A DNA stretch of 64,000 nucleotides. It comes from Rhodocyclaceae bacterium (GTDB taxonomy: Bacteria > Pseudomonadota > Gammaproteobacteria > Burkholderiales > Rhodocyclaceae). Shown here piece by piece: positions 51,853-56,015 of this stretch. The stretch covers positions 1 to 64,000 of the forward strand of contig NKXK01000033.1 in NCBI GenBank assembly GCA_004379165.1, given 5' to 3'. The notes under the pieces were generated by a model, which was given only the letters and a program-made list of their open reading frames with translations, ran no database searches and was not told the DNA's origin. Numbering within the stretch: the first letter of the stretch is position 1; each line of letters starts with the position of its first letter. Made by a program: the position numbers and the translations under genes.

Positions 51853-51880
51853 TTGAAACCCGGACTGAAAAGTTTAATAT
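51853..51880 (+). promoter_or_regulatory. Candidate sigma70 promoter for metK leader
   Basis: TTGAAA-N16-TAATAT; predicted start site near 51887, at the first base of the leader's P1 stem. Confidence 0.45.
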
Positions 51881-51884
51881 TATG

Positions 51885-51938
51885 GGATCGCCGAGTTAAA
51901 CAGACAACTTGCGGGGCGATTTATAAATGCCGCTAAAG
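51885..51938 (+). promoter_or_regulatory. SAM-II-like riboswitch aptamer in the metK 5' UTR
   Basis: P1 ATCGCC(51887-51892)/GGCGAT(51915-51920); pseudoknot GCGG(51911-51914)/CCGC(51930-51933); ATAAATGccGCTAAAG matches the recalled SAM-II 3' core. Confidence 0.6.
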
Positions 51939-51997
51939 CGTCGCCCGCTCGTGGTCCGAAGCCGGTAACGCCGGACCAAGGACCACTGGAGCATTCC

Positions 51998-54614: not shown

Positions 54615-56015
54615 GTGGCTGAATTCAATGACTACGTTGTTGCCGATCTGAGCCTTGCCGACTGGGGTCGCAAGGAAATCCGCATCGCCGAAACCGAAAT
54701 GCCGGGCCTGATGGCCATTCGCGAGGAATTTGCGAAGACCCAGCCGCTCAAGGGCGCGCGCATCACCGGCTCGCTGCACATGACCATCCAGACCGCCGTG
54801 CTGATCGAGACGCTGACCGCCCTCGGCGCCGATGTCCGCTGGGCCTCGTGCAACATTTTCTCGACCCAGGATCACGCCGCGGCCGCCATTGCCGCGCAGA
54901 AGATCCCGGTCTTCGCCGTCAAGGGTGAAACGCTGGTCGATTACTGGGATTACACCCACCGCATCTTCGAGTGGGTCGACGGCGGCTACTCCAACATGAT
55001 CCTCGACGACGGTGGCGATGCCACCCTGCTGCTGCACCTCGGTGCCAAGGCCGAGAAGGATCTGTCGGTGCTGGCCAATCCGTGCTCCGAAGAAGAAACC
55101 ATCCTCTTCGCTGCGATCAAGGCCAAGCTGGCTGTCGATCCGAGCTGGTACTCGGTGCGTCTGGCCCAGATCAAGGGCGTGACGGAAGAAACCACCACCG
55201 GCGTACATCGACTGTACCAGATGCACGCCCGTGGCGACCTCAAGTTCCCGGGCATCAATGTCAATGACTCGGTCACCAAGTCCAAGTTCGACAACCTCTA
55301 CGGCTGCCGCGAATCGCTGGTCGATGGCATCAAGCGCGCCACCGACGTCATGGTTGCCGGCAAGATCGCCGTCGTCTGCGGCTACGGCGATGTCGGCAAA
55401 GGTTCCGCGCAGGCCCTGCGCGCCCTGTCCGCCCAGGTTTGGGTCACCGAAATCGACCCGATCTGCGCCCTGCAGGCCGCGATGGAAGGCTATCGCGTCG
55501 TCACCATGGAATACGCTGCCGATCAGGCTGACATCTTCGTCACCACGACCGGCAATTTCCACGTCATCACCCATGACCACATGGTCAAGATGAAGAACAA
55601 CGCCATCGTCTGCAACATCGGTCACTTCGACAACGAAATCGACGTTGCCTCGCTGGAAAAGTACCAGTGGGAAGAGATCAAGCCGCAGGTCGACCACGTC
55701 ATTTTCCCCGACGGCAAGCGCATCATCCTGCTCGCCAAGGGCCGACTGGTGAACCTCGGCTGCGGCACCGGCCATCCCTCCTACGTCATGTCTTCGTCCT
55801 TCGCCAACCAGACCATCGCCCAGATCGAGCTGTTCACCAAGACCGCCGATTACCCGGTCGGCGTCTACACGCTGCCCAAGCACCTCGATGAGAAGGTCGC
55901 CCGTCTGCAACTGAAGACGCTCAACGTGCAACTAACGACGCTGACGCAGCAGCAGGCCGACTATATCGGCGTGCCGGTCGAAGGCCCGTACAAGACCGAC
56001 CACTACCGCTACTAA
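54615..56015 (+). CDS. ahcY: Adenosylhomocysteinase
   Basis: GTG start, SD aggag; [39 protein letters not shown]-terminal DHYRY. Confidence 0.98.

Follow-up and report, generated by a model that had tools for sequence, protein, structure and literature searches.

What regulates metK, the gene for S-adenosylmethionine (SAM) synthetase, in beta-proteobacteria? A survey by Leyn et al. in 2014 searched for a metK regulator in this group and found none (PMC4239095), and a paper from 2022 stated that the 5′ untranslated regions of metK, metX and metZ in B. thailandensis were suspected to be regulatory, ‘which we confirmed (unpublished data)’ (PMC8814607). Canonical SAM-II riboswitches are known in beta-proteobacteria, including Bordetella (PMC1273637), and their terminators have been described in both alpha- and beta-proteobacteria (PMC2258182). 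The locus considered here lies in a window of 64,000 nucleotides, i.e. the whole stretch of DNA analysed, from contig NKXK01000033.1 of a Rhodocyclaceae bacterium, for which an earlier note had proposed a SAM-II-like riboswitch upstream of metK. We conclude that the metK leader carries a previously uncatalogued form that is homologous to SAM-II and belongs, as a variant, with the SAM-II and SAM-V riboswitches; neither a paper describing it, in the literature searched, nor an Rfam family covering it was found. It probably senses SAM and, as an OFF switch with a pseudoknot like those of SAM-II and SAM-V, exerts feedback on metK at the level of translation.

The leader comprises the 113 nt directly 5′ of metK (51885–51997), with a sigma-70-like promoter just upstream (Table 1). 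P1, the pseudoknot, the promoter boxes, the competing stem (51911–51919 with 51941–51948) and the GTGGTCC/GGACCAC hairpin all lie where the earlier note had placed them, and its identification of the gene as metK agrees with TIGR01034. Two features had been overlooked: a GAC/GUC helix, which corresponds to P2a of SAM-II, and the position of the Shine-Dalgarno (SD) sequence, which is not just beyond the hairpin, as had been supposed, but within its stem. Three promoter-like sites were found against 0.2 expected in shuffles, and many relatives have similar TTGAC/TANNAT boxes 5′ of P1.

Table 1. Positions of the metK leader elements and associated features in the window
Feature	Position	Strand	Remarks
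Sigma-70-type promoter TTGAAA-N16-TAATAT	51853..51880	+	Transcription start predicted at or just before P1
metK-type SAM-II-like aptamer, whole element	51885..51945	+	Covariance models R2, R3
P1 5′ strand AUCGCC	51887..51892	+	Pairs with 51915–51920
L1 third strand GAGUUAA	51893..51899	+	GAUUUGA in canonical SAM-II
P2a-like 5′ strand GAC	51903..51905	+	Pairs with GUC 51940–51942; covaries in relatives
Pseudoknot 5′ strand GCGG	51911..51914	+	In P1 loop; pairs with CCGC 51930–51933
P1 3′ strand GGCGAU	51915..51920	+	Pairs with 51887–51892
A-rich strand AAA, 5′ of core	51925..51927	+	Alignment A1
Pseudoknot 3′ strand CCGC and conserved putative ligand-site core GCUAAAG	51930..51938	+	GCUAAAG invariant in A1
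Expression-platform segment UCGCCCGCUC	51941..51950	+	Can pair with 51911–51919 or, via GCUC, with the SD
Hairpin GUGGUCC (51951–51957)/GGACCAC (51980–51986)	51951..51986	+	Carries the SD stem
Shine-Dalgarno GGAGC	51988..51992	+	Four bases (GAGC 51989–51992) paired with GCUC 51947–51950
metK, S-adenosylmethionine synthetase, 387 aa	51998..53161	+	Pfam PF00438/PF02772/PF02773; NCBIfam TIGR01034, 605 bits
SAH riboswitch RF01057	54467..54530	+	52.7 bits; upstream of ahcY at 54615

The only match to Rfam at the gathering threshold is the SAH riboswitch listed above. The genes in this neighbourhood are metK, an HD-domain gene, ahcY, a tlyA-like gene and a metF-like gene. With RF01057 placed before ahcY and close to metK, two adjacent SAM-cycle genes would thus each have their own RNA sensor.

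In the Rfam check that the earlier note had proposed, the SAM-II model RF00521 aligns with the metK element over the full length, yet at 15.1 bits (E = 0.78) against a gathering cut-off of 36 bits, so standard annotation misses the element. The models for SAM-V (RF01826) and SAM/SAH (RF01727) gave no match at E ≤ 10. No Rfam family other than this sub-threshold RF00521 alignment matches the element, and RF00521 found nothing in the metK leaders of 25 relatives. In an initial RF00521 scan of the genome, the metK element was not among the scored candidates, the best of which were a metX leader at 20.4 bits and likely chance matches.

Covariance model R3 was derived from 28 canonical beta-proteobacterial SAM-II elements of the GAUUUGA type, nearly all of which reach the threshold of RF00521. 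It detects the metK element at 47.2 bits (E = 4.3e-12; the runner-up in the window has E = 0.14), and genome-wide it ranks this element second, behind the genome's own metX SAM-II (53.3 bits). We set aside the score of model R1 (71 bits), because R1 contains the window sequence and the result would be circular, and used in its place the leave-out model R2, from which all sequences listed under Rhodocyclaceae had been excluded. R2 detects 51885–51945 at 70.9 bits (E = 6.7e-18), and the hit ranked after it has E = 2.4. In the reverse direction, RF00521-positive elements are detected by R1, whose seed sequences are of the variant form; the one in G067:C1, for example, scores 36 bits. On the strength of the R2 and R3 scores and the genome rank, sequence comparison identifies the metK element as a SAM-II homologue, not a look-alike, and the SAM-II-like identity first proposed is upheld.

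The element is also widespread and structurally conserved. It lies 5′ of metK in all 30 of the closest relatives, which were picked by MetK protein alone. A pattern scan over 84,980 genomes returned at least 80 readable matches, and among those listed at least 64 combine the full motif with a metK gene immediately 3′ of it; the matches without GCTAAA (L084, L090, L094, L107, L111 and L121) are likely due to chance. An order-wide sample of 150 genomes from 51 families contained 147 metK genes, 42 of which have the element 53–122 nt upstream; all 42 belong to 13 families, which together have 45 metK genes in the sample. Of the strong matches (≥45 bits), 40 of 57 precede metK. Although the earlier note regarded the lineage as unusual, canonical SAM-II is common in beta-proteobacteria and metK usually carries the present form in its leader in those 13 of the 51 sampled families, so the lineage is not unusual.

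Covariation, which the earlier note had put forward as a check, is present among the relatives. Across 48 sequences, 97.3% of pair cells hold standard pairs, compared with at most 54% when the partners are slid, and double-sided changes occur in five of six P1 pairs and two of four pseudoknot pairs. The alignment reaches a covariation score of 0.290, while shuffling gave 0.120 ± 0.009 (0 of 500 shuffles as high). The pseudoknot occurs as GCGG/CCGC, GCAG/CUGC, GCGA/UCGC and GCGU/ACGC in relatives, and in P2a GAC/GUC, GAAC/GUUC and AGC/GCU are swapped jointly. The genome-wide pattern fixed GAGTTAA and GACAACTTGC, and the invariance of both in pattern-derived rows therefore reflects selection by the pattern; this bias does not affect the 30 leaders chosen through the MetK protein. 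The UUG and GCUAAAG core, invariant in alignment A1, is present in all 30 of these protein-chosen leaders. SD sequestration alone would also fit a leader that binds protein or acts independently of a ligand, for example in autogenous control by MetK, and that either descends from SAM-II or merely resembles it. We consider this extremely improbable, given the near-invariant ligand-pocket bases and the significant homology to a SAM-binding aptamer.

Related elements were seen in other settings. A gamma-proteobacterial family outside the order (f55, L239–L246) has elements with GAUUUAA and AGCAACUUGC, located 5′ of an open reading frame of ~105 aa that shows only very weak MetW/methyltransferase similarity and no confident family. 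In a member of the Pelagibacteraceae (L072, 827–883), a GAGUUAA element with a terminator-like hairpin lies upstream of a metY-like gene, and hence alpha-proteobacteria too have the GAGUUAA L1, there combined with a transcriptional platform. In family f13 (L276 and L277), a metK-type element precedes an AAA-type-ATPase-like open reading frame of ~550 aa, an unexpected target.

How does the metK form differ from canonical SAM-II? Both share the H-type pseudoknot, P1, a third strand of the form GA-UU-A, UUGC, the AAAU-nC-GCUAAAG core and a methionine-pathway target gene. The differences, drawn from alignments A1 or A2 against the canonical alignment A3, are as follows. The metK form has GAGUUAA where the canonical form has GAUUUGA, two unpaired bases rather than one between UUGC and P1, and GACAA in place of CAG before CUUGC. 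Its pseudoknot is a contiguous, covarying helix of 4 bp, whereas canonical SAM-II keeps an unpaired base 5′ of GCUAAA. It tolerates inserts of up to ~50 nt, some of them foldable, between P1 and the A-rich strand (in relatives, variable inserts, some with hairpins, lie immediately 5′ of that strand), and its predicted platform sequesters the SD and has no terminator.

The third base of L1 deserves particular attention, being G in 109 of 120 elements and U in 11 of 120 in a set that was partly selected by pattern. In SAM-V, U9, U20, U47 and A50 contact the sulfonium, adenine and amino acid of SAM, with U9 and U20 reading the sulfonium, and U8 touches U47, which pairs with the adenine of SAM (PMC6061858). 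The changed L1 base probably corresponds to U8, and that this position is G in most members is a point against a SAM-responsive OFF switch. A shift in ligand or selectivity within an aptamer of SAM-II origin (e.g. to SAH, methylthioadenosine, or SAM and SAH together) would account for the consistent U-to-G change at a second-shell ligand position, the G-to-A change nearby and the continuous 4-bp pseudoknot that has replaced a bulged one; spermidine-sensing variants of SAM-I are on record (PMC10853860). Nevertheless, such a shift is in our view quite unlikely. The equivalents of U9, U20, U47 and A50 are retained in the aligned metK set, including the uracils that read the sulfonium charge; the downstream gene is SAM synthetase; and in tandem arrangements the element shares its mRNA with canonical SAM-II. 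Moreover, members with the canonical U (GAUUUAA) coexist with GAGUUAA members of the same kind, which suggests that G and U are interchangeable at this position and the ligand the same.

With SAM as the probable ligand, the next question is how binding would be coupled to expression. When 159 metK leaders were compared, pairing between the sequence just 3′ of the aptamer and the SD region of the same leader had a mean energy of −13.1 kcal/mol, as opposed to −9.5 ± 0.19 kcal/mol when SD regions are swapped between leaders (0 of 1000 swaps as good; Wilcoxon p = 2e-17). This leader-specific pairing speaks for a translational platform in which the SD is sequestered. In 88 of the 159 leaders, the SD-pairing segment overlaps the aptamer-pairing segment by at least three bases, as a switch requires. 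Aptamer–platform complementarity is stable, yet no better than with swapped partners and thus not leader-specific, and in thermodynamic folding of 146 leaders mean SD accessibility did not change (0.31 with the aptamer free, 0.30 with it formed). The window leader has three alternative states within 3.6 kcal/mol. The competing-stem ON/OFF platform proposed earlier is therefore plausible, while folding gave no demonstration of switching.

Might SAM be sensed but the effect fall on transcription, through Rho-dependent termination, or on mRNA stability, rather than on ribosome access? The accessibility modelling would be compatible with this, as would the SAM-II before metX in the same genome (L001, G000:C21:128461–128532), a canonical copy followed by a terminator-like hairpin and a T-run, which scores 20.4 bits with RF00521, below the cut-off, and 53.3 bits with the beta-specific model. 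However, no intrinsic terminator-like site was found on the + strand of the metK leader, and the anti-SD complementarity is leader-specific across the 159 leaders compared, so we give this reading very little weight. In another beta-proteobacterial family (L016, G106:C28), metK itself is directly preceded by a canonical SAM-II that scores 41.7 bits with RF00521 and has a terminator-like hairpin.

The favoured reading is thus SAM-dependent control of translation, with the following proposed course. At high SAM, the ligand would be held in a major-groove triplex of GAGUUAA, the CUUGC strand and GCUAAAG, fixing P1, the pseudoknot and P2a, such that segment 51941–51950 could not pair with the aptamer. 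GCUC would then close the stem over the SD and metK would be off. At low SAM, the same segment would pair with 51911–51919, breaking P1 and the pseudoknot; the SD would lose its partner and metK would be translated. Since folding shows no SD switch, we infer the OFF direction from pathway logic, in which SAM represses SAM synthetase, and from the known SAM-II and SAM-V switches.

SAM-V is among the closest known systems. It shares translational control (predicted here), a SAM-II-like core, tandem placement behind SAM-II and, at the site of the metK-form inserts between P1 and the A-rich strand, room for an additional stem-loop (P3) (PMC6061858, PMC9481103). Unlike the metK form, SAM-V buries the SD start in P2a; the metK SD lies ~45 nt 3′ of P2a and is paired by a separate segment. 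SAM-V is found in marine alpha-proteobacteria and Bacteroidetes, and the metK form in beta-proteobacteria, at metK. A further reading, which we regard as rather unlikely, is that the metK form constitutes a distinct SAM-sensing class parallel to SAM-V, of SAM-II descent, with a re-shaped pocket (G for U beside the adenine-binding uracil, and a pseudoknot without the bulge). The affinity of such a class, or its discrimination between SAM and SAH, may have changed, and its special role throughout the beta-proteobacteria would be to control the translation of SAM synthetase. The SAM/SAH riboswitch (RF01727) is likewise a small H-type pseudoknot directly 5′ of metK, with translational control (predicted here), but is confined to Rhodobacterales. 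The metXZ element of beta-proteobacteria is also a methionine-gene leader with a pseudoknot; it was reported for metX/metZ and with a terminator (PMC4239095), and is probably the canonical beta-proteobacterial SAM-II that we see at metX and metY/metZ.

Tandems in which a canonical SAM-II and the metK form precede one gene resemble the SAM-II/SAM-V tandems. Tandem SAM-II arrangements with mixed platforms are already known, with 44 tandems described (PMC9481103). In seven cases (L118, L145, L281, L282, L283, L286 and L287), a canonical SAM-II with a terminator-like hairpin and, 3′ of it, a metK-type element together precede the gene for a protein of ~100 aa that starts M(Y/F)DC and has no Pfam or NCBIfam match; where the sequence extends far enough, the next gene encodes a NorM-like MATE transporter. 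A further tandem (L278, G029:C22) lies 5′ of an HD-type protein, with a divergent second metK (62% identical) farther downstream.

The metK element would fill the regulator gap left by the 2014 survey in a large group, with Burkholderia, Cupriavidus, Ralstonia, Bordetella and Rhodocyclaceae among its members, in which the current Rfam model is blind to it. It also provides two natural tests. One is how far the SAM-II pocket tolerates change beside the base that binds adenine; the other is how a single aptamer fold is re-used in the same cell for predicted transcriptional control at metX and translational control at metK.
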